A DNA stretch of 57,193 nucleotides from Candidatus Krumholzibacteriia bacterium (lineage in GTDB: Bacteria > Krumholzibacteriota > Krumholzibacteriia > JAJRXK01), in assembly GCA_035268685.1 (NCBI GenBank), contig DATFKK010000197.1, positions 1-57,193 of the forward strand, given 5' to 3'. The position numbers were made by a program, and so were the translations under genes. Of the stretch, positions 3,843 through 40,337 are shown piece after piece (positions within the stretch are counted from its first letter, which is position 1; the number at the start of each line of letters is the position of its first letter). Under the pieces are notes generated by a model. It worked only from the letters and a program-made list of their open reading frames with translations. It was not told where the DNA came from and made no database searches.

Positions 3843-3915
3843 GGACTCTCCCACTGGGATCGGGACGAGTGAGGGATATCGGGCGACCGGGCAGCCGGGT
3901 TGAGCGGAAAAGCGT

Positions 3916-10564: not shown

Positions 10565-10592
10565 GGGGGAACCTCCCGTCGGGTACGGACCT

Positions 10593-10632
10593 AGCATAGA
10601 TCCTTGCACGGCGGGGAACCAACCACTAGCCT
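10593..10632. promoter_or_regulatory. Candidate divergent sigma-70-type promoters (maeB / M23 peptidase)
   Basis: The 141-base intergenic region holds, on the minus strand, TTGGTT-18-TATGCT (10622 to 10593) pointing to maeB. On the plus strand it holds TTGCAC-17-TAGCCT (10604-10632) pointing to the peptidase. Both are weak matches (3-4 of 6 per box) and they overlap, which would make the promoters mutually exclusive. Confidence 0.28.
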
Positions 10633-10705
10633 GGCCCGGCGGCCACGGCAAACCCTTGCCAGTCACGAATTCGGTGCTCGACCCGCGGCTCCGGGGAACC
10701 ACTGC

Positions 10706-25490: not shown

Positions 25491-25560
25491 TCCGTCGCCT
25501 CCTTGAAAGCCAAGCGGGGCCGACACCGAGACGGTAGCCGGACCCAGGTACGGAAGATCG

Positions 25561-25580
25561 GCTCGCATCCGGCATACCAG
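25561..25580 (-). promoter_or_regulatory. Candidate sigma-54 (-24/-12) promoter of the porin gene
   Basis: On the minus strand CTGGTATGCCGGATGCGA matches the form YTGGCAYGNNNNTTGCW. The invariant GG (25578-25577) and GC (25566-25565) are exactly 10 bases apart, with 5 of 7 matches in the -24 box and TGC in the -12 box. The predicted start lies near 25553, about 60 bases ahead of the porin ATG. The next gene upstream encodes a sigma-54 activator. Confidence 0.45.
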
Positions 25581-25628
25581 ACGCAAATGACGCGATTGCA
25601 GGAGCTTGACCGCGGAGGACGGGAGCAT

Positions 25629-25659
25629 CTGCCGACGGTTCGGCACCGGATCTCGGCAG
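25629..25659. promoter_or_regulatory. Inverted repeat, possible NtrC-type enhancer site
   Basis: CTGCCGA (25629-25635) and TCGGCAG (25653-25659) form a perfect 7-bp dyad with a 17-base spacer. It lies about 75-105 bases ahead of the predicted porin transcription start, where enhancer sites of sigma-54 activators usually lie. It is between the activator gene's stop and the candidate promoter. Confidence 0.4.
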
Positions 25660-25678: not shown

Positions 25679-27043
25679 TCAGGCCAGGCCGAGCTTGCGC
25701 AGGTGGTGCTGCAACGTGGTGCGCGGCACCCCGAGCAGCTTGGCCGCCCGGCTCTGGTTGTGACCCGAGGCTTCCCAGGCCCGCTCCACGAGGTGATCGG
25801 TGGCCTGGTGGAGCAGGTTGCCGGCCTCGTCACCGAGGCGGAGGCGTACCTCGAAGGGATCGTCGGCGCTGCCGTTCACGCCCAGGTGCAGGTCCTGCGT
25901 CCCGAGCACACCCGACCGGCTCAACAGGGCCGCGCGCTCGAGCACGTTGCGCAGCTCCCGCACGTTGCCCGGCCAGGGATGCTCGCGCAACGAACGCTGG
26001 GCGTGTTCGTTGAGCTCGATCGAGCGCTTGTTCAGCTTCTTCTCGATCCCCAGCAGGAGACGGTGGGCCAGCGGCAGGATGTCGGCGGGACGCTCGCGGA
26101 GGGGCGGGATGGTGAGGGGGGCGACGTTCAGGCGGTAGTAGAGATCCCGTCGGAAGCTGCGCTCGGCGACACGGGCCTCGAGGTCGACGTTCGTGGCAGC
26201 GATGAAGCGCACGTCGATCGGCCGCGGTTCGACCGATCCCACCCGTTGCACCTGCCCACTCTCGAGCACCAGCAGCAGCTTGGACTGCAGATCCGGGTGC
26301 AGGTCCCCGATCTCGTCGAGCAGCAGCGTGCCCCCGTTCGCCCGCTCCACCAGACCCGTCTTGCCCCGCTGCGACGCCCCCGTGAACGCACCCTCGTCGT
26401 AGCCGAAGAGTTCGCTCTCGAGCAGCTCCGACGGGATGGCTCCACAGTTCAACGTGACCAACGGACCGTCCGAACGGTCGCTGTGATGGTGCACGTACTC
26501 GGCAATGAGCGACTTGCCCGTTCCCGTCTCGCCCCGGAGCAGGATCGTGACGTCGGTCGACGCGTACTCGCGGGCTGCCCGCAGGACCTCCTGCATGGCC
26601 GCACTCTCGGCCACTACGCCCTGGACCCGGGCTCGGCCCTCGGACCCGAGCGCCTCGACCTCGCGCCGCAGGCGCACCTGTTCGAGTGCACGCTCCACGA
26701 CCATGCGCATGAGCTCGGGATCGCAGCCCTTCTCGAGGAAGTCGAAGGCACCGCCACGCATGGCCTCGACGGCCAGCTGGATGTTGCCGTGGGCGGTCAA
26801 CATGACCACCGCGGCCTCCGGGCAGAGTTCACGCGCCTCGGCGAGGACCTCGAGCCCCGTTCCGTCGCCCAACCGGTAGTCCGCCAGGATCAGGTCGAAG
26901 TCCTCGGACCGGAGGGTCTTCCGCGCCTCGGACACCCCAGCGGCCGCTCGGATCTCCCACCCACGACGCCGCAGCGACCGCGACAGGGAGTTTCGGACGA
27001 TCCGCTCGTCATCGACGATCAGCAGTCGGAAGCCCATGGTCAT
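25679..27043 (-). CDS. NtrC-family sigma-54-dependent response regulator
   Basis: 454 residues with the three expected domains. Receiver (1-120; DDE at 11-13, Asp55 in LILADYRLGD, Thr in VMLTAHG, Lys in FLEKG where Gly replaces the usual Pro). AAA+ domain (about 143-370) with Walker A GETGTGKS (171-178), sigma-54 contact loop GAFTGA (219-224) and Walker B GTLLLDEIGDL. Fis-type helix-turn-helix at the end (NQSRAAKLLGVPRTTLQHHLRKLG). It should activate sigma-54 promoters when phosphorylated by the heme-linked kinase whose gene overlaps its start by 35 bases. Start is ATG 27043 or the ATG six bases on; neither has a strong ribosome site, as expected with coupled translation. Confidence 0.93.
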   Translation of the reverse strand: MTMGFRLLIVDDERIVRNSLSRSLRRRGWEIRAAAGVSEARKTLRSEDFDLILADYRLGDGTGLEVLAEARELCPEAAVVMLTAHGNIQLAVEAMRGGAFDFLEKGCDPELMRMVVERALEQVRLRREVEALGSEGRARVQGVVAESAAMQEVLRAAREYASTDVTILLRGETGTGKSLIAEYVHHHSDRSDGPLVTLNCGAIPSELLESELFGYDEGAFTGASQRGKTGLVERANGGTLLLDEIGDLHPDLQSKLLLVLESGQVQRVGSVEPRPIDVRFIAATNVDLEARVAERSFRRDLYYRLNVAPLTIPPLRERPADILPLAHRLLLGIEKKLNKRSIELNEHAQRSLREHPWPGNVRELRNVLERAALLSRSGVLGTQDLHLGVNGSADDPFEVRLRLGDEAGNLLHQATDHLVERAWEASGHNQSRAAKLLGVPRTTLQHHLRKLGLA

Positions 27044-28619
27044 CGTTCACTTGCGATGGGTGCCGGCACGGCAGACGAAGCGTGAACACACTACCCTCAC
27101 CCTTCTGACTGCGCACCTGGACCGTGCCCTGGTGCTGCTGGACCACGCGACGGACGATCGTGAGCCCCAGGCCCGTCCCGTTGCGACTGCGTGTGAAGAA
27201 GGGATCGAAGATCCGTGGCAGCAGGTCCTCACCGATCCCCTGACCGTTGTCGGCCACCTCGATCACGACCTGCTCGCCGTCGAGTTCCGCGCGCAGGTCC
27301 ACTTCGGGATCGGCGACGGTCTCGACCGCCCGGATCGCGTTCGACACGAGGTTGAGCAGGGCCTGTTCGATCCGATGACGATCGATCTCGACCGTGGGCA
27401 CGTCCCCGGACACGTCGACGCGAACGCGGACCGACTCCCGCTGCATCTGCTTGCCCGACAACAACATCACGCGGTCGAAGATCTCGTGCAGGTCGTGCTC
27501 GCCGAACTCGGGCGGATGCGGCCGGGCGAAGTCGTTGACCTCGCTGACGATCCGACCGATGCGCTGCAGGCCTTCGTCCATCTCGTCGTAGACCTCGGCC
27601 TCCTCCTCGTCGTCCACCCCACGGCGACGCAGGTAGTCCAGGTTGCTGCGGACGGCGAAGAGCGGGTTGCGGACGTCGTGGGCGATCCCGGCCGCGATCT
27701 CGCCGAGCGAGACCATCTTCTCGCTCTCGATCTGGCGCTCGGTGGTGTCGCGGATCTCCTGCTGCATGCGATCGAGAGCCCGCGACAGCCCCCCGATCTC
27801 GTCGCTGTCCCCATTCGGGATCGGGGTCTCGAAGTCCCCGCGGCCGATCCGCGCGGCAGCCGACTCCAGCGATTTCACTCGCCGCACGACCGCACCCTCG
27901 ATGAAGCGGTAGACCAGTGTGGCGATCACCGCCGAGGCGATCAGGCAGATCAGGACGCTCCACCAGAAGAAGTCCGTGCGCGCCTCGTCGACGTCGTCCA
28001 TGGGAATGGACACGCTGAGCGCTCCGCGCACGTCACCGACCTCGTAGCCCTGCTCGCCGTGACACTCCAGGCACGAGACGTCGGCCACCAGCGGCGCCAG
28101 GTAACGGTACCGGCGTCCCTCCGGCCCGTCGTCCACCCGTGCGACCTCCCGTAGCTCCCGGCCCTCGGCGCGGGCGGCGTGCACTTCCTCGAGCGCCTCC
28201 CGCTCGAAGCCGTCGGGAGCGTTCACCGGGTTGATGGGATCGAGACTGGTGATGTGGAAGTGGACGTCGAACTCTTCGTTCGGGCTCAGTTCCGCGATCT
28301 CCCGGGTGAGCATGGCGGGGTTGCGCAGGACCAGCGAGTCGCCGTCGGCGGTGATCGCCACGTCGTCGCTGAGGAACGGGTTGTCCTCGACTCCCGGCCG
28401 TTTCGGCACGTAGACGCCGCCGTGGTAGGCGACCCAACCACGGACCACGACCATCTCGTGGTAGAGGTGCCGCGAGACGTCGCGCATCCCCTCTTCGAGC
28501 AGCTCGTGGGTGCGCTGCCCGACGTGACGGAAGGCCAACAGGTTGATCGCCAGGACGATCACCGTGACCCCGACACCGATGCGCACGGACAGACTGGAAA
28601 GAGGTCCGGGCCAGTTCAT
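27009..28619 (-). CDS. Membrane histidine kinase with periplasmic heme-c (DUF3365/Tll0287-like) sensor domain
   Basis: 536 residues. Helix 1 (about 13-31), periplasmic domain (32-215), helix 2 (about 218-238), HAMP (about 240-292), HisKA with phospho-His314 in AAGIAHDVRNPLFAV, HATPase with NLVSNAIRAV, VADNGQGIGED and GTGLGLTI. The periplasmic domain ends in CLECHGEQGYEVGDVRGALSV: one CxxCH heme-c site (Cys183, Cys186, His187) followed by the 'GD.rGalSv..p' strand of Tll0287-like domains. Such sensors bind heme covalently and respond to redox state or a gas such as NO. It overlaps the NtrC-type regulator gene and is divergent from the Hao/Nap operon, the evident target. Confidence 0.9.
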   Translation of the reverse strand: MNWPGPLSSLSVRIGVGVTVIVLAINLLAFRHVGQRTHELLEEGMRDVSRHLYHEMVVVRGWVAYHGGVYVPKRPGVEDNPFLSDDVAITADGDSLVLRNPAMLTREIAELSPNEEFDVHFHITSLDPINPVNAPDGFEREALEEVHAARAEGRELREVARVDDGPEGRRYRYLAPLVADVSCLECHGEQGYEVGDVRGALSVSIPMDDVDEARTDFFWWSVLICLIASAVIATLVYRFIEGAVVRRVKSLESAAARIGRGDFETPIPNGDSDEIGGLSRALDRMQQEIRDTTERQIESEKMVSLGEIAAGIAHDVRNPLFAVRSNLDYLRRRGVDDEEEAEVYDEMDEGLQRIGRIVSEVNDFARPHPPEFGEHDLHEIFDRVMLLSGKQMQRESVRVRVDVSGDVPTVEIDRHRIEQALLNLVSNAIRAVETVADPEVDLRAELDGEQVVIEVADNGQGIGEDLLPRIFDPFFTRSRNGTGLGLTIVRRVVQQHQGTVQVRSQKGEGSVFTLRLPCRHPSQVNDDHGLPTADRR

Positions 28620-29134: not shown

Positions 29135-30508
29135 ATGATCCGAGCCTGCCTGATCGCCCTGTGTGCCTTGGCCCTCCTGGCCACCGGCGCCACGGCGCAA
29201 CTCCCCGACGAAGCTTCCGTGGCCGGCAAATGCATGACCTGCCACAAGGAGAAGCATCCCGGCCTGTACCAGCAGTGGTACGAGTCGGCCCACGGCATCC
29301 ACAACGTCACGTGCATGAGCTGTCACCAGGCCAAGGAAGGCGAACCCGACGCCTACGAGCACTACGACGCAACGATCGCGACCATGGTCACGCCGAAGGA
29401 CTGCGGTCGTTGTCACGAGAAGGAAGCCGAGCAGGTCAACGACAGTTACCACGCGAAAGCCGGCCAGATCCTCGACTCGGCCGACGCCTACCTGGCCCAC
29501 GTCGGCGCGGGGCATCCCGCCGCGATCCAGGGCTGCGAGAGCTGTCACGGCGCCAAGATGGAGATCGATCCCGAGTCGCCGAACAAGCTCAGCAAGAAGA
29601 CCTGGCCCAACAGCGGCATCGGGCGCATCAACCCCGACGGATCGCTCGGAAGCTGCAACGCCTGCCACACACGGCACTCCTTCGACATCGCTCAGGCCCG
29701 CCAGCCAGAATCGTGCGGCAAGTGCCACCTCGGCCCGGATCATCCCCAGAAGGAGATCTACGAGGAGAGCAAGCACGGCAACACGTACTTCACCAACCGC
29801 GAGAAGATGAACCTGGACGCCCAGGAGTGGGTGGTCGGCGAGGACTACAACGTGGCCCCCACCTGCGCGACGTGCCACATGTCGGCCACGCGCACCCAGG
29901 CGTTCACGCACGACGTGGGCGACCGCATCGCCTGGACCAACCGTCCGGTGATCTCGAAGCACAAGGAGAACCACGTCCAGAAGCGCACGGCGATGCAGGA
30001 CGTCTGCCTGGCCTGTCACGGCGACACCTTCGCCGACGGCCACTTCTACCAGTACGACGCCTCGGTGAAGCTCTACAACGAGAAGTTCGCCCAGCCGGCC
30101 CAGGCGATCATGAACAAGATCAAGGAGAAGGACCTCCTCGAGACGCCGGCCGCCTTCTCGAACGACGTCGAGTGGGCGTTCTGGGAGCTTTGGCACCACG
30201 AAGGCCGTCGCGCCCGCCACGGCGCCTCGATGATGGGCCCCGACTACACGTGGTGGCACGGCTTCTACGACGTGCTGCACAACTTCTACTTCGACTTCCT
30301 GCCGAAGGCGCGTGAGTACGGCGATCCCGAGGTCACGGCGATGATCGACGACCTGCTCCAGAACGATCCGATGCACCAGTGGGTGATGACCGACACCGAA
30401 ACGCTGAAGCGCCGGATCAACGAGGGCACCATGCAAGAGGTCTTCGCCAACATGTTCGATGCCTACATCGAGGCGGAAGCACGCGAAGACGAAGAAGAAA
30501 ACGAGTAG
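29135..30508 (+). CDS. Octaheme cytochrome c of the hydroxylamine oxidoreductase (Hao) family
   Basis: 457 residues. ATG 29135 with AGAGAGG ahead and a signal peptide ending GATA-Q (residues 1-21). Eight CxxCH sites have Cys at 33, 60, 90, 134, 174, 194, 244 and 291. A helical C-terminal part without hemes follows, as in Hao, including PDYTWWHGFYDVLHNF (369-384). Hao enzymes oxidise hydroxylamine; epsilonproteobacterial Hao, usually encoded with a NapC-like partner, is proposed to run in reverse and reduce nitrite towards ammonium. That gene pairing is seen here, so a reductive role is the better inference. DYTWWHG is in the region where oxidative Hao carries its cross-linking Tyr; whether Tyr371 is that residue needs alignment. 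First gene of the operon. Confidence 0.82.
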   Translation: MIRACLIALCALALLATGATAQLPDEASVAGKCMTCHKEKHPGLYQQWYESAHGIHNVTCMSCHQAKEGEPDAYEHYDATIATMVTPKDCGRCHEKEAEQVNDSYHAKAGQILDSADAYLAHVGAGHPAAIQGCESCHGAKMEIDPESPNKLSKKTWPNSGIGRINPDGSLGSCNACHTRHSFDIAQARQPESCGKCHLGPDHPQKEIYEESKHGNTYFTNREKMNLDAQEWVVGEDYNVAPTCATCHMSATRTQAFTHDVGDRIAWTNRPVISKHKENHVQKRTAMQDVCLACHGDTFADGHFYQYDASVKLYNEKFAQPAQAIMNKIKEKDLLETPAAFSNDVEWAFWELWHHEGRRARHGASMMGPDYTWWHGFYDVLHNFYFDFLPKAREYGDPEVTAMIDDLLQNDPMHQWVMTDTETLKRRINEGTMQEVFANMFDAYIEAEAREDEEENE

Positions 30509-30520
30509 GGAGACTCATCC

Positions 30521-32014
30521 ATGATCCGAACGTTCTCCATGTTCCTGCGAGCGATATCGATCAGCTCGATCGGGCGTCTCGGGATCGCTCTGGTCACGGG
30601 ATCGTTCGTCACCTTCGTGCTCTTCCAGATCGCCAGCGTTTCCGGCCTGATCGCGAACGCCTACTTCGGTCTGATCCTCTACCTGGGTCTGCCGACGCTG
30701 TTCGTGCTCGGTCTGCTGCTGATCCCGGTGGCCTTCTGGAGGGTCCGCGGATCCTCGGGCAAGAGCCTGCAGGCCCTGCTCGAGGACCGGGTGGGGCCCG
30801 AACAGGTCGAAGGGGGTGCTCTCGGTGCCCCGATCACGCGCACCGTTCTGGTGCTCACCCTGGTGAACGTGATCTTCCTCGGCGTCGCGGGAATGCAAGG
30901 GCTGCACTTCATGGAGTCCCCCGAGTTCTGCGGCACCGCCTGCCACTCCGTCATGAACCCCGAGTGGACCACCTACCAGGCCTCCCCTCACGCGCGGGTG
31001 GACTGCGTGGAGTGCCACGTGGGCGAAGGCGTCGACGCCCTGATCGACTCGAAGATCCAGGGCGCGTGGCAGATGATCTCGGTGACCTTCGATCTCTACG
31101 AACGACCCATCCCCACTCCCGTGCACACCCTCCGGCCGGCGCAGGAGACCTGCGAGCACTGCCACTGGCCCGAGAAGTTCTACGGGAACAAGCTCGAGAC
31201 CTTCGTCCGCTACCAGCAGGACGAGGAGTCGACCCCGATCTACTCCACTCTCAGCATCAAGATCGACTCGCGCGGACGCGGCGACGGTGGCGTGCACTGG
31301 CACGTGGCCGAAGAGAACGAGGTCCGCTACGCGTCGGTCGAGGACCAGCGTCGCGAGATGATCTGGGTCGACGCACGTCAGCCCGACGGCTCGTGGAAGC
31401 GCTACGAGAACACCGATCTCGTGGGGGACCCCGACACCGCCGGACACGAGCGTCGTTTCGACTGCGTGGACTGCCACAACCGGGCCACGCACGTCTACGA
31501 GCAGCCGGACTTCGCGATCGACGAACGCATGCGGCTGGGCCACATCGACCCGGACCTTCCCTTCGTCAAGCGCGAGGCCCTGGCCGCCATCACCTTCGAC
31601 TACCCCGACGTGGAAGCCGCCATGGCCGGCATCGCCAATCACATGCGTGGCTACTACCGACGGTTCTACCCGGAGGTGAGCAGTGGCAACACGAACGAGA
31701 TCGACGCGGCCATCGAATCGCTGCGGTCGATCTACCGGCGCAACATCCACCCGGAGATGAACATCACGTGGGGCTCCTATCCGAGCCTTCTCGGTCACGA
31801 AGAGAGCGCGGGTTGTTTCCGTTGCCACAACCAGAAGCTGAAGGCTGCCGACGGCAGTCACATCAGCGACGACTGCACGATGTGCCACTCCATGCTCGCC
31901 AACGAGGAACCGGATCCGTTCCTCTACATCCGCGAACCGGCCGAGGGACAGCGGACGGCGGCCATGCACACCTACCTGAAGGAAGAGTTCCTGAACTCCT
32001 TCTTCGATCAATGA
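30521..32014 (+). CDS. Membrane-bound hexaheme NapC/NirT-like cytochrome c (quinol dehydrogenase)
   Basis: 497 residues. ATG 30521 after AGGGAGACTCATCC. Three N-terminal membrane helices (about 20-44, 48-72, 106-128) precede a periplasmic domain with six heme sites: one CX3CH (C137-GTA-C141-H142) and five CxxCH (Cys at 162, 211, 315, 432, 452). The block SPEFCGTACHSVMNPEWTTY then SPHARVDCVECHVG is the NapC/NrfH-like start, in which the first heme site often gets a nearby Met. It should pass electrons from menaquinol to the Hao-like protein and possibly to NapA. It is longer than NapC/NrfH (usually one helix, four hemes, about 200 residues). The insert at about 220-310 has no heme. Gene 12 bases after hao. 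Confidence 0.83.
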   Translation: MIRTFSMFLRAISISSIGRLGIALVTGSFVTFVLFQIASVSGLIANAYFGLILYLGLPTLFVLGLLLIPVAFWRVRGSSGKSLQALLEDRVGPEQVEGGALGAPITRTVLVLTLVNVIFLGVAGMQGLHFMESPEFCGTACHSVMNPEWTTYQASPHARVDCVECHVGEGVDALIDSKIQGAWQMISVTFDLYERPIPTPVHTLRPAQETCEHCHWPEKFYGNKLETFVRYQQDEESTPIYSTLSIKIDSRGRGDGGVHWHVAEENEVRYASVEDQRREMIWVDARQPDGSWKRYENTDLVGDPDTAGHERRFDCVDCHNRATHVYEQPDFAIDERMRLGHIDPDLPFVKREALAAITFDYPDVEAAMAGIANHMRGYYRRFYPEVSSGNTNEIDAAIESLRSIYRRNIHPEMNITWGSYPSLLGHEESAGCFRCHNQKLKAADGSHISDDCTMCHSMLANEEPDPFLYIREPAEGQRTAAMHTYLKEEFLNSFFDQ

Positions 32015-32079
32015 CCCGTGTCGGACTAGGGCCTCGAGTGGAGGTCCGCGAGAAACGGCACACATCGGAAGGAAGTCCC

Positions 32080-32499
32080 TTGAGATCCGCCATGTTGACC
32101 GCCTTGATCCCCCTGGTGGCCCTGGCCCTCGCCTCGTGTGCGCAGGGAACGGGTTCCGGGGTGGCGACCGTCGAAGAAACGGTCGAAGTGGCCGCGCAGG
32201 CGTCGCGGGTGGACGTACCCGCCGACCACCCGTCCCTGTCCGAGCAGGAACAATTGATCGCTTGCGCGGACTGCCACCGCGACACCACCCCCGACGTCTA
32301 CGATTCCTGGTACGCCTCGACCCACGGCATCGGCAACGTGAAGTGCTACCAGTGCCACGGGACCTACGAGGACATGAAAGTGGCACCGGCCGTGTCCAAC
32401 TGCGCTACCTGCCACGCGGACATGATCACGAAACAGGCCGACGCTCCCGCGTGTTGGACCTGCCACCCCGCCCACACGTTCGATCCGCACGCGGAGTAG
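32080..32499 (+). CDS. Tetraheme cytochrome c lipoprotein, paralogous to the Hao N-terminus
   Basis: 139 residues from a TTG start (32080) with GGAAGGAAG at ideal distance; the in-frame ATG at 32092 is too far from it. The lipobox LALASC puts the lipidated Cys at 20. Four CxxCH sites have Cys at 62, 89, 108 and 125. Residues 62-93 align without gaps to Hao residues 33-64: PDVYDSWYASTHGIGNV against PGLYQQWYESAHGIHNV, with identical heme spacing. It is probably an electron shuttle anchored to a membrane facing the periplasm, between the NapC-like cytochrome and NapA or Hao. No napB is seen, so it may stand in for diheme NapB. The gene is 65 bases after the NapC-like stop and 11 before napA. Confidence 0.82.
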   Translation: MRSAMLTALIPLVALALASCAQGTGSGVATVEETVEVAAQASRVDVPADHPSLSEQEQLIACADCHRDTTPDVYDSWYASTHGIGNVKCYQCHGTYEDMKVAPAVSNCATCHADMITKQADAPACWTCHPAHTFDPHAE

Positions 32500-32510
32500 G
32501 AGGCGAAGAC

Positions 32511-34901
32511 ATGAATGCGATCTCGAGACGACAGTTCATCAAGCGTGCGGCGGCCCTGACCGCGGCGTCGTACGTGGGCATGAAGCTGCCCTTCTTCCTG
32601 GCCGACGCCCAGGGTCAGGACGCCGACACCTGGACCCGCGGCACCTGCCGCCTCTGCGGGGTCGGATGCCGTCTGGAACTCGGCCTGCGCAACGGGAAGC
32701 CGGTCGCCCTGCGCGGCGTGTCCGATTCACGCACCAACCTCGGTTACCTGTGCATGAAGGGCATGCTCTTCCACAAGATCATGGAGCACCCCGACCGCCT
32801 GACGAAGCCGCTCTACCGCGAGAAGAAGTCCGACGACTTCCGTGAGATCTCGTGGGAAGAAGCCCTGGACATCGCGGCCCAGAAGTTCGTCGACGTGAAG
32901 ACCGAGTACGGATCCGACGCCTGCGCGTACTACGGCTCTGGCCAGGCCCAGACCGAGGAGACCTACTTCTTCCAGAAGGTCATGCGCGCCGGGCTCCAGA
33001 CCAACAACGTGGAAGGCAATCCTCGTCTCTGCATGGCGAGCGCCGTGGGCGGCTACCTGACCAGCTTCGGAGCCGACGAACCGATCGGCGGCTACAGTGA
33101 CATCGAGCAGTGCTACTACTTCTTCATCATCGGGTCGAACATGGCCGAAGCGCATCCGGTGATCTGGCGCCGCGTCATGCGTCGCAAGCTCGACAACCCC
33201 GACACGGTGAAGGTCGTCAACGCCGACCCCCGGATCTCGGCAACATCGCGTATCGCCGACCTGCATCTGCAGTTCGATCCGGGCACGGATCTGGCGCTGC
33301 TCAACGCGATGGCCCACGTGATCATCGAGGAGGATCTCGTCGACCACGACTTCCTGAGGGACTATTGCGTCTTCAAGAAGGGTGGCGACACGATCGACTT
33401 CGATCAGTTCGCGAAGGACGTGGCCGAGTACACGCCCGAGAAGGCGGCCGAGATCTGCGGCGGGAGCATGAACCCCGACGACATCCGCAAGACCGCCCGC
33501 TGGTTCGCCAACAGCAAGGGCACCATGAGCATGTGGTGCATGGGGATCAACCAGCGCAAGCGTGGGGTGTGGGCGAACAACCTGATCCACAACCTGCACC
33601 TTCTCACCGGGCAGTTGTGCAAGCCGGGCGCCGACAGCTTCTCGCTGACCGGTCAGCCCAATGCCTGCGGCGGCGTGCGCGAGGGCGGTGGCCTGTGCCA
33701 CATCCTTCCGGGCCACCGTCCGGTCGCCAAGGATCCGCTGCGCAAGGACGTCGAGCGTCTCTGGGGAGTGCCCGAGGGCAGGATCCCTCCCAAGCCGGGC
33801 TACCACACCATGGCCATGTTCAGCGCCGTGAACGACAGGAAGATCCGGGCGATCTGGATCAACTGCACGAGCCCCGCACAGTCCCTGCCGAACCTCACCC
33901 CCTATCGTGACGGTATGGCGCAGGACGAGGTCTTCGTTGTGGTGACCGACGTCTTCGCCACCAAGACCACCGAGGTGGCGAACCTGGTGCTGCCCACGGC
34001 CTTCCACTTCGAGAAGACCGGCGTCTACGGGTGCACCGAGCGCCGTTCGCAGATCACGCCGAAGGCCAAGGACGCTCCCGGCGAGGCCATGCCCGAGGTG
34101 TGGATGATCCGCGAGTGGGCGCGGCGCATGGGCGAGAAGCTGAACGACCCCGTGTTCGCCAAGGTCATCGAACCCTTCGAGGGTCTCGAGCCGGACTTCG
34201 ACCTGCCCAAGGCGATCTGGGACGAGTACACGCAGAAGCTCACCAAGGGTCGCGACAACGACCTGCGCGGAGCGACCTACGACGTGCTCCTGCAGATGCC
34301 CGATGGTGTGCAGTGGCCGGCTCCCACGGAGAAGTTCGCCCTGACCGGGGGAGCAGTGAAGAAGTTCGTGCGCGGCAAGGACCCGTTGGTCGAGGAGCAC
34401 GGGGAGGGCGATGCCCCCTACGTCTTCTACGGCCCGGCTCACGCCGACAAGAAGCTCTACGTGTGGTTCCGCCCGCATGCCCTGCCGGGCGAGGTGCCCG
34501 ACGACGAGTATCCGATGTATCTGTCCACCGGACGGATCATCGACCATTGGCACACCACCAGCATGACGGGTCGCATTCCCGAACTGCTGCGGGCCAATCC
34601 CTATTCGTTCGTCGAGATCAATCCGAAGGACGCCGAGCGGATGGGGATCAAACCCAACGACATGATCGAGATCACCACCCGCCGCGGGAAGGTGACCATG
34701 CCCGCCCGCGTCATGGAGGGTCCGCTCGAAGGCACCGTGTTCGCCTACTGGCACGACATGGCCGAGAGCCGGATGATCAACAAGGTCGTCAACGACGTCT
34801 TCGATCCCGGTTCGAAGGAGCCCGAGTTCAAGATCGGGGCGTGCCGGATCCGCCGGGTCTCCGGCCCGCGGGACCTTGACCCCGTGGTGACGCAACTCTG
34901 A
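32511..34901 (+). CDS. napA: Periplasmic nitrate reductase catalytic subunit (NapA-type molybdopterin oxidoreductase)
   Basis: 796 residues. ATG 32511 after TAGGAGGCGAAGAC. Strong Tat signal SRRQFIKRAAA at residues 5-15. The [4Fe-4S] site has C46, C49, C53 and C81 (CRLCGVGC and YLCMKG). The Mo ligand is Cys174 in NPRLCMASAV, matching NapA (Nas and NarG differ in this region). Other matches are LPTAFHFEKTGVYGCTERRSQ and TGRIIDHWHTTSMTGR in the cofactor-binding C-terminal domain. It reduces nitrate to nitrite in the periplasm. The family also contains reductases of other oxyanions, so nitrate is likely but not proven. NapB and NapC are missing here; NapD, NapG and NapH follow. Confidence 0.87.
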   Translation: MNAISRRQFIKRAAALTAASYVGMKLPFFLADAQGQDADTWTRGTCRLCGVGCRLELGLRNGKPVALRGVSDSRTNLGYLCMKGMLFHKIMEHPDRLTKPLYREKKSDDFREISWEEALDIAAQKFVDVKTEYGSDACAYYGSGQAQTEETYFFQKVMRAGLQTNNVEGNPRLCMASAVGGYLTSFGADEPIGGYSDIEQCYYFFIIGSNMAEAHPVIWRRVMRRKLDNPDTVKVVNADPRISATSRIADLHLQFDPGTDLALLNAMAHVIIEEDLVDHDFLRDYCVFKKGGDTIDFDQFAKDVAEYTPEKAAEICGGSMNPDDIRKTARWFANSKGTMSMWCMGINQRKRGVWANNLIHNLHLLTGQLCKPGADSFSLTGQPNACGGVREGGGLCHILPGHRPVAKDPLRKDVERLWGVPEGRIPPKPGYHTMAMFSAVNDRKIRAIWINCTSPAQSLPNLTPYRDGMAQDEVFVVVTDVFATKTTEVANLVLPTAFHFEKTGVYGCTERRSQITPKAKDAPGEAMPEVWMIREWARRMGEKLNDPVFAKVIEPFEGLEPDFDLPKAIWDEYTQKLTKGRDNDLRGATYDVLLQMPDGVQWPAPTEKFALTGGAVKKFVRGKDPLVEEHGEGDAPYVFYGPAHADKKLYVWFRPHALPGEVPDDEYPMYLSTGRIIDHWHTTSMTGRIPELLRANPYSFVEINPKDAERMGIKPNDMIEITTRRGKVTMPARVMEGPLEGTVFAYWHDMAESRMINKVVNDVFDPGSKEPEFKIGACRIRRVSGPRDLDPVVTQL

Positions 34902-34972
34902 TGATCCTGCGTCGGGGAGGGACGGATCCACGTCCCTCCCCGGCCGTCCCGAACCCCCTGAACGGAGCCGAC

Positions 34973-35272
34973 ATGCCCATCGGAGGATTCGTCATCACCG
35001 TCGCCCCCGAGGAGATCGACACCGTCGAGGCGGAGCTTTCCGGCCGCGACGCGTGCGAGGTCCACGGGACCGACGACAAGGGCAACATCGTGGCCGTGCT
35101 GGACACCGAGACCAGCGACGCCATGGACGACATCGTCCACGAACTCGAGCAGGATGCCCGGATCCTGTCGGTCGGACTGGCCTATCTCCATGCAGAAGAC
35201 GAAGTCGAAAAGATCATCCGCGGAGAGCTCACTCCCGACCTCCGCAAGCGACGCAGGAACGAGTCGTCGTGA
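34973..35272 (+). CDS. napD: NapD, chaperone for NapA maturation
   Basis: 99 residues from ATG 34973 (AACGGAGCCGAC ahead); an upstream ATG exists but the NapD fold starts here. Pattern: GGFVITVAPEEIDTVEAELS, GNIVAVLDTETSDAMDDIV and ARILSVGLAYLHAED, the beta-alpha-beta arrangement of NapD, which binds the Tat signal of NapA. A charged tail (ELTPDLRKRRRNESS) is longer than usual because the coding region overlaps napG by 83 bases. Gene 71 bases after napA. Confidence 0.8.
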   Translation: MPIGGFVITVAPEEIDTVEAELSGRDACEVHGTDDKGNIVAVLDTETSDAMDDIVHELEQDARILSVGLAYLHAEDEVEKIIRGELTPDLRKRRRNESS

Positions 35273-35834
35273 GGTCCTCCGGGGCCTGGCGGCCGTGACC
35301 CTGGCCGGGCTGGTCAGTGCTCCTTCCCTCGCACTGGCCGGTCCGGTGGGGCGCGATCGCCTTCGGCCGCCAGGAGCGCTCGACGAGGACCACTTCGCCT
35401 CGCGCTGCATCCGCTGCGGCCGCTGCGCCGCCGTGTGCCCCTACGAGTCCATCCAGATGCTCGGCCTGGGCGAGGGCCTGCACGCCGCGACCCCGATCGT
35501 CGAACCGGTCGAGGTGCCCTGCTACATGTGCATGGAGTGCGTCGACGTCTGCCCCACGCGCGCGATCGAGCCGGTCGAGATGGAAGAGATCACCATGGGC
35601 ACGGCGAAGGTCGACCGCGAGATGTGCGTCGCGTGGAACGGTACCAGCCTCTGCCGCACCTGCTACACCGTATGCCCGCTGCGTGACCGTGCGATCACGA
35701 ACTGGGAGTTCAAGCCCGAGGTCGTCGACGACGTCTGCACCGGCTGTGGCGTGTGTGTGCATGCCTGTCCGATCTCCGACGAGACGGGCGACCGCAAGGC
35801 GATCTACGTCGACCCTCCCGGGGTGCGGTCGTGA
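35190..35834 (+). CDS. napG: NapG-like periplasmic ferredoxin with four [4Fe-4S] sites
   Basis: 214 residues from ATG 35190, the only start codon left before the Tat motif TSRREVLRGLAAVTLAG (residues 24-40). This makes the N-region long and overlaps napD by 83 bases. Four cluster motifs: Cys 73/76/79/83 (CIRCGRCAAVC), 111/114/117/121, 146/155/158/162 (CVAWNGTSLCRTCYTVC, the NapG/MauM signature) and 183/186/189/193. NapG works with NapH to move electrons from quinol to periplasmic acceptors. The stop overlaps the napH start as GTGA. Confidence 0.87.
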   Translation: MQKTKSKRSSAESSLPTSASDAGTSRREVLRGLAAVTLAGLVSAPSLALAGPVGRDRLRPPGALDEDHFASRCIRCGRCAAVCPYESIQMLGLGEGLHAATPIVEPVEVPCYMCMECVDVCPTRAIEPVEMEEITMGTAKVDREMCVAWNGTSLCRTCYTVCPLRDRAITNWEFKPEVVDDVCTGCGVCVHACPISDETGDRKAIYVDPPGVRS

Positions 35835-36649
35835 TCCGGCGCTGGCGACACTCCGTCCAGGCCTTCGCTCTGCTCCTGCCGATCGCCCTGCCGGCGATCC
35901 ACGTGTTCTTCGGCTGGTCGTGGATCCAGGGCGGATACCAGTCCCTGGGCATCGGGCCCGTGTGGTTCCTCTCGCCGCTCGAGGGGGTCGAGTCGGCGCT
36001 CGCGAGCCGGTCGATCCCCTGGACGATCATCGTGGGCGCCGTCCCCCTGGCTCTGCTCGCGGTGTTCATGGGCCGCGTCTTCTGCAGCTGGATGTGTCCG
36101 ATCAACACCCTGCAGGAACTGGCCGAGTGGCTCGCCCGCACGCTCTTCGGCTACCGCCCCGGCAACCGACTTCCGATGCCCCGGCCGGTGATCTGGATCG
36201 TGCTGGGCGCCGATCTGGTGCTGAGCTTCCTGCTCGCCACGCCGCTGTTCTCGATCGTCTCGCCGCCCGGGCTCGTCAGCCGCGAGGCGATGGGCATGTG
36301 GTTCTTCGGTCTGGTCGGCTTCCAGACGGCGATCATCGCGGCGGTCCTGGTGCTCGGCCTGATCACGCGCCGCTGGTTCTGCCGTGGGCTGTGCCCGGTG
36401 GGCGGTCTGCTCGGCCTGCTGGGGACCAGGCGCGTCCTGAACGTGACCTTCGACCCCAGCAACTGCCTGAACTGCGGACTCTGCACCGAGGCCTGCCCCA
36501 TCGGCCTGGAGCCGGGCCGCAACGAGGTGAACCTCCTGGTGTGCTGGAACTGCGCGGAGTGCGTGGAGACCTGCCCCGGGAACAGCCTCGACCTGACGTT
36601 CACCCGCCCCCGCCGGCGGGAAGAGATCCTGGAGGAGACCCCGGCATGA
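35831..36649 (+). CDS. napH: NapH-like membrane ferredoxin (quinol dehydrogenase)
   Basis: 272 residues, GTG start at 35831 overlapping the napG stop. Four or five membrane helices; two CX3CP motifs at their ends (FCSWMCPIN, FCRGLCPVG) and two [4Fe-4S] sites on the C-terminal side (CLNCGLCTEACP, CWNCAECVETCP). This is the NapH/NosR-C-terminal type that, with NapG, oxidises menaquinol. The NapGH pair and the NapC-like cytochrome give this locus two possible quinol-side entries. Overlaps mobB as ATGA. Confidence 0.88.
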   Translation: MIRRWRHSVQAFALLLPIALPAIHVFFGWSWIQGGYQSLGIGPVWFLSPLEGVESALASRSIPWTIIVGAVPLALLAVFMGRVFCSWMCPINTLQELAEWLARTLFGYRPGNRLPMPRPVIWIVLGADLVLSFLLATPLFSIVSPPGLVSREAMGMWFFGLVGFQTAIIAAVLVLGLITRRWFCRGLCPVGGLLGLLGTRRVLNVTFDPSNCLNCGLCTEACPIGLEPGRNEVNLLVCWNCAECVETCPGNSLDLTFTRPRRREEILEETPA

Positions 36650-37176
36650 ACGCGCGCCCGCAGGCCGTGGCCTTCGTTGCCCCCTCCGGCACGGGGAAGA
36701 CGACCCTCGTGGAGGCCGTGATCCGGACCCTGCGGGGGCGCGGATGGCGCGTGGGAGCCCTGAAACACGACGCTCACGACTTCGACATCGACCATCCCGG
36801 CAAGGACTCGCATCGTTTCCGGGAGGCCGGAGCCGGCACGACCGCGATCGCGTCGGCCACACAGGTGGCCGTCATGCGAACGACCGCGTCGGCCTGGTCG
36901 CTCGACCGCGTCCTCGCCACCTGTTTCGGCGACGAGGACCTGGTGCTGGTCGAGGGCTACTCCACCGGGGACCTGCCGAAGATCGCGGTCCACCGGGCGG
37001 CGACCGGACAGCCCCTGCGTGTCGGGATCGACGACCCGGACCTGATCGCGGTGGTCACCGATGTCGAGCTCGAGACCGGCGTCCGCTGCTTCGCACTGGA
37101 CCGGCCCGCCGAAGTGGCCGCGTTCCTCGAGACGACCCTGATCCGCCGGAGGCCGCTCACGCGCGTCCCACAGTAG
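36646..37176 (+). CDS. mobB: MobB, molybdopterin-guanine dinucleotide biosynthesis adaptor
   Basis: 176 residues. P-loop APSGTGKTTLVEAVI near the N-terminus, then WRVGALKHDAHDFDIDHPGKDSHRFREAGA, the MobB signature, and LVLVEGYS (Walker B-like). MobB binds GTP and assists MobA in forming the guanylated cofactor carried by NapA-type enzymes. ATG 36646 overlaps the napH stop, so cofactor supply is translationally tied to the reductase genes. Confidence 0.9.
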   Translation: MNARPQAVAFVAPSGTGKTTLVEAVIRTLRGRGWRVGALKHDAHDFDIDHPGKDSHRFREAGAGTTAIASATQVAVMRTTASAWSLDRVLATCFGDEDLVLVEGYSTGDLPKIAVHRAATGQPLRVGIDDPDLIAVVTDVELETGVRCFALDRPAEVAAFLETTLIRRRPLTRVPQ

Positions 37177-37291: not shown

Positions 37292-38317
37292 ATGATCCAC
37301 CCGACCCGCCGCGTGACTCCCGCGCCGAGCGGCGAACATCTCGAGGATCCCTTCGGCCGCCGGCTCGACTACCTGCGCCTGTCGGTCACCGATCGTTGCA
37401 ATCTGCGTTGCCGCTACTGCATGCCGGCCACGGGCGTGGCCAAGGTCGGGCACGACGACGTGCTGCGGATCGAGGAGATGCTCGAACTCTGCTCGATCCT
37501 CGTCGACCTCGGTGTGCGCAAGATCCGACTGACCGGAGGGGAACCCCTGGTCCGGCGCGGAGTGCTCGACCTGCTGCGCGGCCTGGACGAGCTTCCGACC
37601 CCGCCGACGCTGGCCGTCACCACGAACGGTGTATTGATCGAGGACAAGCTCGATGCCCTGCTCGCCACAGGTGTCGACCGCGTGAACCTGAGTCTGGACT
37701 CGCTCCGTCCCGAGACCTTCGCGCGGATCACCCGGCGCGACGACTTCGACCGCGTCCGCCGCGGCCTCGACCTGCTGCTCGCCTCGCCGCTCAACCTCAA
37801 GATCAACGTGGTCGTCCTGCCGGGCACGAACGACCACGAGTTCGGTGACTTCGTCGATCTGGTCCGCGACCACGACGTGACCGTGCGCTTCATCGAACCG
37901 ATGCCCTTCGACGGCGACGGCGGCCGCGAGGCCACGAGCATGGACGGCGACACGATCGTCGACCGGTTGCGCACCCACGTCGACCTGAGGCCTCTCGGCC
38001 GCGGTCCTCGCGACGTGGCCGAGACCTGGGAGAGCGACGCACTGCGTGGTCGTCTGGGCGTGATCCGGGCCCACACCCGCGCCTTCTGCGCCGACTGCAA
38101 CCGCTTGCGGCTCGACGCCCGCGGTCGCCTGCGCACCTGCCTGTACGGCACGCCGAGCGCCGACCTCGGCGCGATCCTGCGCAGCGGAGGTCACCCCGAC
38201 ACCGTGCGGGGCGCGATCGCCGAGGCGATCACCCGTCGCCATGCCGACGGCTACGTCGCCGAGGCCACCCGTTGCCGCACCACCACCAACGAATCCATGT
38301 CGAGCATCGGGGGCTGA
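37292..38317 (+). CDS. moaA: GTP 3',8-cyclase MoaA (radical SAM)
   Basis: 341 residues from ATG 37292 (TGGAAGGAAGCC). The radical-SAM cluster motif is in CNLRCRYCMP; GTP-side features are LTGGEPLVR and the second [4Fe-4S] site FCADCNRLRLDARGRLRTC. The C-terminus ends in Gly-Gly, as needed for activity in MoaA. It catalyses the first step of molybdenum cofactor synthesis together with MoaC. Start chosen at the MoaA N-terminal region before FGRRLDYLRLSVTDRC. Confidence 0.95.
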   Translation: MIHPTRRVTPAPSGEHLEDPFGRRLDYLRLSVTDRCNLRCRYCMPATGVAKVGHDDVLRIEEMLELCSILVDLGVRKIRLTGGEPLVRRGVLDLLRGLDELPTPPTLAVTTNGVLIEDKLDALLATGVDRVNLSLDSLRPETFARITRRDDFDRVRRGLDLLLASPLNLKINVVVLPGTNDHEFGDFVDLVRDHDVTVRFIEPMPFDGDGGREATSMDGDTIVDRLRTHVDLRPLGRGPRDVAETWESDALRGRLGVIRAHTRAFCADCNRLRLDARGRLRTCLYGTPSADLGAILRSGGHPDTVRGAIAEAITRRHADGYVAEATRCRTTTNESMSSIGG

Positions 38318-38353: not shown

Positions 38354-38806
38354 ATGGGAAACGTCAAGGCCATCTGCATCAGCGAGAAGAAGGGCACCAC
38401 CAAGGTCCCCGTGGACGCCTGCCGGTTCGCGACCGAGCACGGCATCGAGGGCGACGCCCACGCCGGCCCCTGGCACCGTCAGGTGTCGCTGCTCGCCCAC
38501 GAGAGCATCGAGCGCATGCGTGCGGTGTTCCCCGCCATCGAGGACGGCGCCTTCGCCGAGAACGTGGTGGTCGAGGACGTCGACCTGGCCGCGTTGGGCA
38601 TCGGTGATCGCCTTCGCCTGGGCCGAGGCGTCGAGCTCGAGGTCACGCAGATCGGCAAGGAGTGCCACCACGGCTGCGTGATCCGCGAGAAGACCGGCGA
38701 CTGCATCATGCCCCGCGAGGGGATCTTCTGCCGCGTGGTGTCCGGCGGTGAACTGCGATGCGGCGACACCGTCGAGCTGGCGGCGACGACCACGGACGTG
38801 CGGTGA
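38354..38806 (+). CDS. MOSC-domain protein of the molybdenum cofactor cluster
   Basis: 150 residues, ATG 38354 after GAGGAACGATC. A stand-alone MOSC domain: KKGTTKVPVDACRF, HGIEGDAHAG, RQVSLL, FAENVVVEDVDL, LEVTQIGKECHHGC and MPREGIFCRVVSGG. MOSC domains bind or transfer sulfur or the molybdenum cofactor. This short type commonly sits beside moa/mog genes. The Cys-rich segment (GKECHHGC, GDCIMP) may hold the reactive thiol. The stop overlaps mobA as GTGA. Confidence 0.85.
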   Translation: MGNVKAICISEKKGTTKVPVDACRFATEHGIEGDAHAGPWHRQVSLLAHESIERMRAVFPAIEDGAFAENVVVEDVDLAALGIGDRLRLGRGVELEVTQIGKECHHGCVIREKTGDCIMPREGIFCRVVSGGELRCGDTVELAATTTDVR

Positions 38807-39405
38807 ACACGCCCTCGGCCATCGTCCTGGGCGGCGGTCGGTCGACGCGCTACGGCCGCGACAAGGTCACCGCTCCCTGGGCCGACTCCACGCTCCTGCA
38901 ACAGGTGCTGACCGCGATCCCGATGCAGCGCCGCGAGGTCCTGCTCGTGCTCCGCGAGGACCAGACCGACACCTGTCCCGGGATCGATCGCGTGGTCCGG
39001 GACGATCCAGCGGCGCCCGATGGCCCTCTCCGTGGCGTCGTCGCCGGTCTGCGGGCGACCACGTCGGCGTGGAACTGGATCCTGGGCTGCGACCTCCCCC
39101 GCCTGCGCCCGCCGATGCTCGAACTGTTGATGGACCACGCGCACGACGGCGTCGACGCGGTGGTCTTCCGTCACGGCGGACACCCCGAACCCCTGGTGGC
39201 CGCCTACGCGCGCGGCTGCCTCGACCCTTTCGAACGCGCCCTCGCGTCGGGGGAGGTCGCTCCCCGACGCGCTCTGCGGCAGGTGCGCGCGCACTGGATC
39301 GACGAAGACGTCTGGCGCTCCGTCGATCCGGACGGCGAGACCTTCCTCAACGTGAACACCCCGATCGATCCCCGGCGTGCGTCCGGGACGGAGGACCTGC
39401 GATGA
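38803..39405 (+). CDS. mobA: MobA, molybdenum cofactor guanylyltransferase
   Basis: 200 residues with GTG start at 38803. Nucleotidyltransferase signature LGGGRSTRYGRDK (family form LAGGxSxRMGxDK), GPLRGVVAGL, ILGCDLPRLRPPML with the metal-binding Asp, and FLNVNTPID near the end. It transfers GMP from GTP to Mo-molybdopterin, producing the form needed by NapA. Overlaps its neighbours on both sides, indicating one operon. Confidence 0.9.
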   Translation: MNTPSAIVLGGGRSTRYGRDKVTAPWADSTLLQQVLTAIPMQRREVLLVLREDQTDTCPGIDRVVRDDPAAPDGPLRGVVAGLRATTSAWNWILGCDLPRLRPPMLELLMDHAHDGVDAVVFRHGGHPEPLVAAYARGCLDPFERALASGEVAPRRALRQVRAHWIDEDVWRSVDPDGETFLNVNTPIDPRRASGTEDLR

Positions 39406-40337
39406 TCGACGTCGGCCACAAGACCACAACCCTGCGCACCGCCACCGCCCGCGCCGTGATCCAGGCGCGCAGTGCCACGCTCGACCGCGTGCGCGAGAGG
39501 ACCGTACCCAAGGGCGATTGCCTCGAGGTGGGCCGCGCCTGCGCCGCCCTCGCCGCCAAGAACGTGGCGAACACCATTCCCTACTGCCATCCCATCCGCA
39601 TCGACTGGGTCGGGACCCTGTACGAGATGACCGACGAGCAGATCCAGGTCGACGTGACCGTCCACGCCGTCGACCGCACCGGTGTCGAGGTCGAGGCCAT
39701 GGCCGCCGCGTCGGCCGCGTCGCTGGTGATCTACGACATGCTGAAGATGCTCGACGACAGCGTGTCGATCGAGGGCATCCGCCTGGTGCAGAAGTCCGGG
39801 GGCAAGACCGACTGGAACAAGATCGACCCCAGCGGCATCCGCGCGGGCGTGCTGGTGTGCAGCGACTCGATCAGCGCGGGCCACAAGACCGATCGCTCGG
39901 GCGAGCTGATCCGCGAGCGCCTGGTCGGACGCGGATTCGACGTGGCGGAGTACGAGGTCGTCCCCGACGACGAGGACACGATCGCGTCGACCGTACGCCG
40001 CTGGATCGACGACGACCGGATCCGCCTGGTGATCACCACCGGCGGAACCGGCTTCGGCCCCCGCGACCACACGCCCGAGGCCATGGACGCCGTCATCGAA
40101 CGCGAAGCGCCGGGCATCGTCGAGGCCGCTCGGGCCCACGGTCAGGAGCGCACACCCTTCAGCATGCTCAGCCGCGGCCGCGCCGGAATCCGGGGCGAAG
40201 GCCTGATCGTGAACCTGCCGGGTTCGACGGGGGGCGTGAAGGACTCGATCGACGCGGTGCTCACCGGCGTGATCCACGGATTCAAGATGCTCCGCGGTGG
40301 CGGGCACGAGGACGACCCACGGGGGACACAGGGATGA
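39402..40337 (+). CDS. moaCB: MoaC-MoaB fusion: cyclic pyranopterin monophosphate synthase and molybdopterin adenylyltransferase
   Basis: 311 residues from ATG 39402 (ATGA overlap). Residues 1-145 are MoaC: DVGHKTTTLRTATARAVI, AKNVANTIPYCHPI, EAMAAASAASLVIYDMLK and SGGKTDW with the conserved Lys135. Residues 147-300 are MoaB/MogA: GVLVCSDSISAGHKTDRSG, LVITTGGTGFGPRDHTPEA and NLPGSTGGVKDS. The first part completes precursor Z synthesis with MoaA; the second adenylates molybdopterin before metal insertion. Such fusions are known in several phyla. The late step is thus encoded on one polypeptide with an early one. Confidence 0.92.
   Translation: MIDVGHKTTTLRTATARAVIQARSATLDRVRERTVPKGDCLEVGRACAALAAKNVANTIPYCHPIRIDWVGTLYEMTDEQIQVDVTVHAVDRTGVEVEAMAAASAASLVIYDMLKMLDDSVSIEGIRLVQKSGGKTDWNKIDPSGIRAGVLVCSDSISAGHKTDRSGELIRERLVGRGFDVAEYEVVPDDEDTIASTVRRWIDDDRIRLVITTGGTGFGPRDHTPEAMDAVIEREAPGIVEAARAHGQERTPFSMLSRGRAGIRGEGLIVNLPGSTGGVKDSIDAVLTGVIHGFKMLRGGGHEDDPRGTQG

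Follow-up and report, generated by a model that had tools for sequence, protein, structure and literature searches.

What does an octaheme cytochrome of the hydroxylamine oxidoreductase (HAO) family, followed by a hexaheme membrane cytochrome, do at the head of a set of periplasmic nitrate reductase (nap) genes? The question is raised by a stretch of 57,193 nucleotides, hereafter the window, from contig DATFKK010000197.1 of Candidatus Krumholzibacteriia bacterium (assembly GCA_035268685.1), a metagenome-assembled genome (MAG) from the little-known phylum Krumholzibacteriota with 202 contigs and 4.59 Mb, 99.33% complete and 1.76% contaminated, in which the operon contig is C197. The answer that we favour, as probable though far from secure, is that a periplasmic nitrate-reducing chain has been joined here to a separately inherited respiratory module, whose octaheme part would be a quinol-fed nitrite reductase working beside Nap. 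A first-pass annotation of the sequence had described seven collinear genes at 29135-36649 with visible heme sites and twin-arginine translocation (Tat) motifs, and all of these are in place on the + strand, each with an open reading frame (ORF); for NapA, Hao, NapD, NapG and NapH the family matches are far beyond chance:

29135 to 30508, + strand: Hao-like octaheme cytochrome c, 457 amino acids (aa), signal peptide, eight CXXCH sites, Trp373 in the column of the cross-link Tyr
30521 to 32014, + strand: NapC/NrfH-like membrane hexaheme cytochrome, 497 aa, three to four hydrophobic segments in residues 1-125, five CXXCH sites and one CX3CH site
32092 to 32499 (alternative start 32011), + strand: NapM-like tetraheme cytochrome, a predicted lipoprotein of 135 aa, four CXXCH sites, LASC lipobox recognised by eye
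32511 to 34901, + strand: NapA, catalytic subunit of periplasmic nitrate reductase, SRRQFIK Tat motif, D. desulfuricans-like
34973 to 35272, + strand: NapD, Tat proofreading chaperone, family match at 5.4e-16
about 35190 to 35834 (ORF from 35154, start uncertain), + strand: NapG, 4Fe-4S ferredoxin-type, SRREVL twin-Arg motif, family match at 2.4e-36
35831 to 36649 (GTG start; ORF from 35753), + strand: NapH, polytopic 4Fe-4S quinol dehydrogenase, family match at 3.5e-37

The spacing of the seven genes is tight and operon-like. Gaps of 12 nt and 11 nt separate the octaheme from the hexaheme gene and the lipoprotein gene from napA, the hexaheme and lipoprotein genes either overlap by ATGA (start 32011) or lie 77 nt apart (start 32092), and the NapD/NapG and NapG/NapH reading frames overlap. 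Molybdenum-cofactor genes follow.

The octaheme protein matches PF13447 at 1.4e-25, with eight CXXCH sites counted, and its strong matches by sequence and fold are HAO-family proteins, IhOCC (PDB 4QO5, which we take to be the protein of Ignicoccus hospitalis) coming first and NrfA chains being weak. Using an AlphaFold model built without hemes (predicted local distance difference test, pLDDT, 80.8), the three PDB matches found by Foldseek at E<=0.001 were all HAO-family, with low overall template modelling (TM) scores of 0.30-0.34. The column of the cross-link Tyr (Tyr467 in NeHAO, counted onward from 1FGJ residue 405) was read from an alignment of five HAO-type rows, taken from a Nitrospirota-centred search and 61-81% identical to the 1FGJ fragment, five HDH rows exceeding the NCBIfam HDH cut-off and 15 anammox paralogues. 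Tyr fills this column in all five HAO-type rows, all five HDH rows and 13 of the 15 paralogues, and the window protein has Trp373 there. IhOCC has no Tyr in this column, and the reductive HAOr (6H5L) also places Trp in it, in a weak printed alignment (-1.4 bits); a 36-residue HAOr piece used as query matched nothing besides HAOr.

The position of the protein was examined in an unrooted tree of 65 rows with long branches, in which the HAOr row, assembled from printed pieces, is itself a long branch. The window protein and all 26 included close relatives form one clade (100/100), spread across about a dozen phyla and comprising the nearest octaheme kin found. A 100/99 split leaves this clade together with the IhOCC-like proteins, themselves a separate clade (100/99), and sets opposite them oxidative HAO, HDH and the anammox paralogues, along with HAOr and a further octaheme clade from Krumholzibacteriota; the tree program issued a warning of long branches coming together between the IhOCC-like side and the HDH side. 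The phylogenetic check that had been proposed against oxidative Hao and HDH thus sets the protein firmly apart (100/99), and its sequence places it outside both groups, in a clade beside IhOCC. A forward hydroxylamine:ubiquinone redox module (HURM), in which the octaheme protein would oxidise hydroxylamine and the hexaheme protein would return the electrons to quinone, is compatible with the HAO-family fold, but the missing Tyr, the linkage to nap and a place in the tree apart from oxidative HAO and HDH make such oxidative use extremely unlikely.

The second Krumholzibacteriota octaheme clade (L022, L023, L024, L025, L026, L028, L029, L030 and L031), which lies on the HAO/HDH side and is 34-39% identical to the window protein, has the motif DYxxWYG in place of the window protein's DYTWWHG, and two of its members, L026 and L030 (DYAYWYG), have Tyr at the cross-link position. 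Another genome, G026, encodes an octaheme-family protein of 733 aa with nine CXXCH sites, which is an extended version of the window protein (L047:7830-10031, the same gene as in L018).

Within the window clade, three Acidobacteriota rows (Thermoanaerobaculales, Holophagae) stand nearest to the window protein (97/90), and relatives from the Krumholzibacteriota family f5 sit elsewhere, which indicates that the octaheme gene was probably transferred between phyla. The hexaheme protein agrees, being 57-58% identical to those of L091-L093 (two Thermoanaerobaculales, one GN15) against 46-55% in f5. This protein scores 35 bits against PF03264 (cut-off 24.1) and 60 bits against TIGR03153, under the cut-off of 134.2; all eight homologues aligned with it keep its CX3CH site (FCGTACH) unchanged, and it is likely a NapC/NrfH-family quinol dehydrogenase serving the octaheme protein.

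The two cytochrome genes travel together. Loci were compared, with flanks of up to 9 kb on each side, for the best 80 of 572 confirmed octaheme candidates, a selection and not a census, in which some contigs are shared with the Krumholzibacteriota loci. Among these 80, the hexaheme gene lies directly downstream of the octaheme gene in 50; in five more the sequence stops no further than 250 nt from Hao, and 25 have no hexaheme gene downstream, four of them (L105, L134, L136 and L169) with less than 450 nt of downstream sequence. Their record titles assign the 50 loci to roughly a dozen phyla (Acidobacteriota, GN15, Zixibacteria, Calditrichota, CSSED10-310, Planctomycetota, Neomarinimicrobiota, Ignavibacteria, Aminicenantes, Myxococcota, KSB1 and Krumholzibacteriota). 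Among carriers of the octaheme clade, Desulfofustis glycolicus DSM 9705, which can be cultured, lacks a hexaheme gene downstream of its octaheme gene, and a Melioribacter roseus MAG carries both genes. An octaheme homologue of at least 60% identity occurs in 19 other Krumholzibacteriota genomes, 17 of which were examined with their surroundings (G068 and G072 were left out), and the hexaheme gene adjoins it in 16 of the 17 loci, the contig ending in the other. The octaheme and hexaheme genes are a separate two-gene module, of which we noticed no account in the open-access full-text literature. The search for the same gene order in related genomes, suggested by the first-pass annotation, accordingly bears out the pair and not the whole: within the flanks examined, napMADGH adjoins the octaheme gene in none of the best 80 loci, where NapA was seen in L163 and L167 only, and no nap genes adjoin it in the 17 Krumholzibacteriota loci.

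In 11 further loci among the best 80, a NapH-like gene (24-34%) lies near Hao on the same strand, in six of them at most 500 nt upstream; three that were checked score best as NapH/MauN-type, under the cut-off. Such an upstream gene is a possible second electron feeder. NapH-like polyferredoxin genes at loci without napA are:

L099, 7918 to 8517
L102, 3994 to 4548
L124, 1381 to 1998
L135, 7974 to 8531
L145, 2892 to 3446
L161, 7887 to 8732

A Planctomycetota MAG (L112) carries two inverted octaheme/hexaheme pairs about 5 kb apart (1070-3895 and 9172-11394).

The nap half of the operon has other kin. The nearest solved structure to NapA is that of D. desulfuricans (2nap, 721 bits), followed by 2NYA, which we take to be E. 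coli NapA (498), and by the next non-Nap enzyme (380); among NCBIfam models NapA ranks first (645 and 607 bits), ahead of Fdh-alpha (504). The residues aligned to D. desulfuricans Cys140, Asp155, Gln346 and Arg354, whose roles we presume (Cys140 being the molybdenum ligand), are all identical, the Cys being residue 174 here. Judged by these scores and residues, the protein is very probably a Desulfovibrio-type nitrate reductase, in line with its earlier assignment. Loss of the molybdenum ligand, suggested by the Gly of a DEPxG motif, was considered and dropped, since the true ligand is the Cys of NPRLC, kept in the alignment. In a search within the phylum, relatives of NapA reach 74-76% identity in three f5 genomes (G032, G075 and G065) and at most 43% elsewhere. 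The tetraheme lipoprotein is 62% (over 92 aa) and 46% (over 133 aa) identical to cytochromes in the same position at L075 and L077, and matched no NapM model in the profile libraries searched. In G032 (L075), napM-A-D-G-H is followed by MoeA, MobB, MoaA and MobA with no hao alongside; G065 has napMADGH and only a distant (41%) octaheme gene, on the opposite strand and 8 kb off; and in G075 the two contigs each break off just where the modules could adjoin.

Two modules, each with kin of its own, thus meet in the window operon. A join of this sort may be produced by MAG assembly, a possibility compatible with every other reading, so that the probabilities we assign add up to more than one. It would account for a join found in one genome only, and for Hao kin in Acidobacteriota beside NapA kin (74-76%, from the phylum-only search) in another Krumholzibacteriota family; yet the gene boundary is intact, the NapC-like ORF overlapping the NapM-like one by ATGA when the latter begins at 32011, and the guanine-cytosine (GC) content is even across 30-34.5 kb (0.63-0.66). 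An artefact is therefore very unlikely. Octaheme genes also join nap in other layouts: G003, a genome given as of the same family (the window genome's or f5), has Hao (44%), NapA (39%) and a tetraheme NapB-like protein, and two Nitrospiraceae loci have Hao (51-52%), NapA and NapG, the longer, L167, also having NapH and a diheme protein. The repeated joining of octaheme genes to nap in differing layouts supports a shared function in the metabolism of nitrogen oxides (N-oxides).

The first-pass annotation had seen neither nrfA nor nirB, which holds for the operon and the window, and for NirB throughout the assembly, where its NIR_SIR domain (PF01077) gave no match (11 of 14 control genomes were positive). 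The idea that NrfA is missing from the genome was rejected, since a PF02335 search found nrfHA on contig C176 (L080:4125-6248, - strand). This NrfA is a pentaheme protein of 557 aa in which all five sites are CXXCH and none CXXCK; it scores 371 bits with Pfam, above the cut-off, and 249 bits with NCBIfam, below the cut-off of 595, and its NrfH, at 160 bits, passes the TIGR03153 cut-off of 134. Contig C44 (L081:4330-5838, - strand) encodes a cytochrome with nine CXXCH sites, a lipoprotein-like N-terminus and a weak NrfA score. For the prismane protein Hcp (PF03063), the window genome gave no match and 5 of 14 control genomes did. Nitrite reduction through free hydroxylamine as in Epsilonproteobacteria, proposed earlier, is not upheld: the Nautilia route uses Hcp and is incomplete here because none was detected in an assembly that is 99.33% complete, and a hand-over of hydroxylamine to Hcp was rejected on the same ground. 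Likelier than that route is either the formation of ammonium directly by the octaheme enzyme or a transfer to NrfHA.

The presence of nrfHA and the lack of a detected Hcp lend some weight to another role, in which NrfHA would perform the respiratory nitrite step and the octaheme cytochrome would detoxify or scavenge nitric oxide (NO) and hydroxylamine leaking from nitrate and nitrite respiration; a further sink for both would be useful, and a heme-sensor two-component system adjoins the operon. The distribution of the pair fits a main respiratory role better. In f5 (38 genomes, 36 counted), an octaheme homologue (>=60%) occurs without NrfA in 18 genomes, NrfA without it in eight, both in none and neither in 10 (one-sided Fisher p 0.0014, with kinship ignored and MAGs incomplete). 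The other pair contigs examined lack napA nearby, which again suits a main respiratory enzyme better than a guard for Nap, and we regard detoxification as unlikely, if still a serious contender. As the octaheme protein and NrfA are never found together in f5, a substitute role is suggested, and in related genomes the octaheme pair seems to take the place of NrfAH.

Less probable still is the view that the pair reduces a non-nitrogen acceptor (a sulfur oxyanion, a metal or an extracellular acceptor) and adjoins nap by chance. The pair is widespread in MAGs without napA in the stretches examined, and a hexaheme NapC-like protein with several transmembrane segments presumably resembles the inner-membrane quinol dehydrogenases of metal reduction, such as ImcH. 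Its octaheme partner, however, belongs to an HAO-family clade beside IhOCC, the wider octaheme clade is joined to nap in three layouts, the window's included, besides the published joins, and NrfA is excluded from its company in f5; a non-nitrogen acceptor is accordingly quite unlikely.

For nitrite reduction beside Nap, the reading that we favour, we infer the electron path, direction, substrate and product of the operon as follows. NapGH, and possibly the hexaheme protein, would draw electrons from quinol; the NapM-like lipoprotein would carry them to NapA, which would reduce nitrate to nitrite. The hexaheme membrane protein would oxidise quinol and feed the octaheme cytochrome, the pair working like an NrfAH complex, and the octaheme cytochrome would reduce nitrite (or NO or hydroxylamine derived from it); with no Hcp detected, ammonium is the most likely end product. 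Several findings weigh against this proposal. The NapA scores fall under both NCBIfam equivalog cut-offs (645 against 904; 607 against 930.55). The side of the tree on which a protein lies is by itself no guide to direction, since the HAO/HDH side holds HAOr, a reductive enzyme, as well as the second octaheme clade. The joint octaheme/hexaheme and napMADGH layout is seen in this single MAG, and G032 carries both modules on separate contigs, its pair lying on L035; as napMADGH stands beside the pair in no other locus examined, a linked supply of nitrite from Nap is not the rule for the pair. With the genome's own nrfHA, nitrite ammonification would be covered twice. Lastly, the exclusion is weak across the phylum (78 genomes, with G071 and G076 left out, kinship again ignored): one genome, that of the window, has both octaheme homologue and NrfA, 19 have Hao only, 15 NrfA only and 43 neither (p 0.039), and when all octaheme hits are counted the figures are 3, 27, 13 and 35 (p 0.06).

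Beyond the window, we tentatively put forward a broader proposal, which we hold to be possible and somewhat doubtful: the octaheme protein and its hexaheme CX3CH partner may form a quinol:nitrite (or N-oxide) oxidoreductase that has gone unrecognised, moves horizontally and occurs in about a dozen phyla. It would stand in for NrfAH, yield ammonium without Hcp and, here, have been captured by a napMADGH operon in a genome that also has NrfHA. If this is true, a widespread nitrite-reducing module, easily mistaken for 'hydroxylamine dehydrogenase', has to be counted in the part of the nitrogen cycle that makes ammonium, and a testable rule follows, namely that NrfA and the octaheme/hexaheme pair replace each other in one Krumholzibacteriota family. 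Matches to hao should not be read as nitrification, and no genome should be labelled NrfA-free until the whole of it has been searched for nrfHA.

The genes on either side of the operon are the following:

36646 to 37176, + strand: MobB
37292 to 38317 (approximate start; ORF from 37184), + strand: MoaA
38354 to 38806, + strand: MOSC-domain protein
38758 to 39405, + strand: MobA-like NTP transferase
39402 to 40337, + strand: MoaC-MoaB-like fusion, MoaC and MoCF_biosynth domains
40349 to 41557, + strand: MoeA
27009 to 28619, - strand: divergent sensor histidine kinase, Tll0287-like sensor domain (CLECH heme site) and HAMP
25679 to 27043, - strand: NtrC-type sigma-54 response regulator, the partner of the kinase

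The divergent Tll0287-like kinase is a possible regulator of the operon. Considered and dropped was a promoter of the sigma-54 type on which the NtrC-type regulator would act, a scan of the window having given 11 near-matches against 14.05 expected and none upstream of Hao. A sigma-70 and terminator scan returned two promoter-like and six terminator-like sites, none upstream of Hao or at the operon end. Adjoining the two-component genes, at 24006-25646 on the - strand, is a porin-like outer membrane protein with a weak DESULF_POR1/alginate-export match, possibly an anion porin.

The pairing of a nitrate reductase with Hao is already known, and the particular combination of genes found here is a new variant. 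The first-pass annotation had held the gene order to be unlike known nap operons. The idea of a novel nap order was rejected, the operon of Desulfovibrio desulfuricans 27774, napCMADGH with a tetraheme NapM, having the same order (PMC5701242); hao beside napMADGH has been published in three accounts (PMC6896113, PMC5317091, PMC5276818).

The D. desulfuricans operon, in which the presence of NapM and absence of NapB are also told elsewhere (PMC5276818, PMC5317091), shares with the window the order C-M-A-D-G-H, a tetraheme cytochrome in the NapM position and the lack of NapB, and its NapA structure (2nap) is the solved one most like the window protein. It differs in that the position of NapC, a tetraheme protein (PMC5276818), is taken here by a hexaheme protein of 497 aa with several hydrophobic segments that belongs with the octaheme gene, that the NapM-like protein of the window is a predicted lipoprotein, and that the published operon, as its genes are named, has no hao. 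A napM-type nitrate reductase cluster adjoining Hao is described for Caldithrix abyssi, where the Tyr-less epsilonHao is proposed as the nitrite reductase (PMC5317091), and for Deferribacter autotrophicus, where Hao is likewise so proposed (PMC6896113); in Thermosulfurimonas and Dissulfuribacter, napMADGH has a Hao homologue nearby (PMC5276818). As these clusters are described, C. abyssi has no NapC and a Rieske/cytochrome b pair, in contrast to the hexaheme NapC-like protein after Hao here, and D. autotrophicus has no NapC and a cluster that includes Hcp as well as a decaheme cytochrome, whereas no Hcp was found in the window genome.

Nautilia profundicola, whose reverse-HURM comprises HaoA, CycB/NapC and Hcp (PMC3701875), likewise sets an octaheme Hao and a NapC/NrfH-family quinol dehydrogenase alongside Nap metabolism, but as reported its haoA and cycB stand at distant locus tags (1280 and 0559), CycB is tetraheme and Hcp belongs to the pathway; in the same account, NrfAH and reverse-HURM genes were then known together in one genome, that of C. 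fetus. Within the HAO family, in which Tyr and reaction direction have been treated (PMC12758564) and whose Tyr-less hao genes are reported as abundant in hypersaline mats (PMC8940962), IhOCC of Ignicoccus hospitalis is, among solved structures, the best match in both sequence and fold and shares the Tyr-less cross-link column, but it belongs to a separate clade (100/99) beside that of the window. NrfHA, finally, offers the analogy of a membrane quinol oxidase of the NapC/NrfH family feeding a multiheme nitrite reductase, an arrangement that the window pair may reproduce with an octaheme HAO-family enzyme in place of the pentaheme NrfA.

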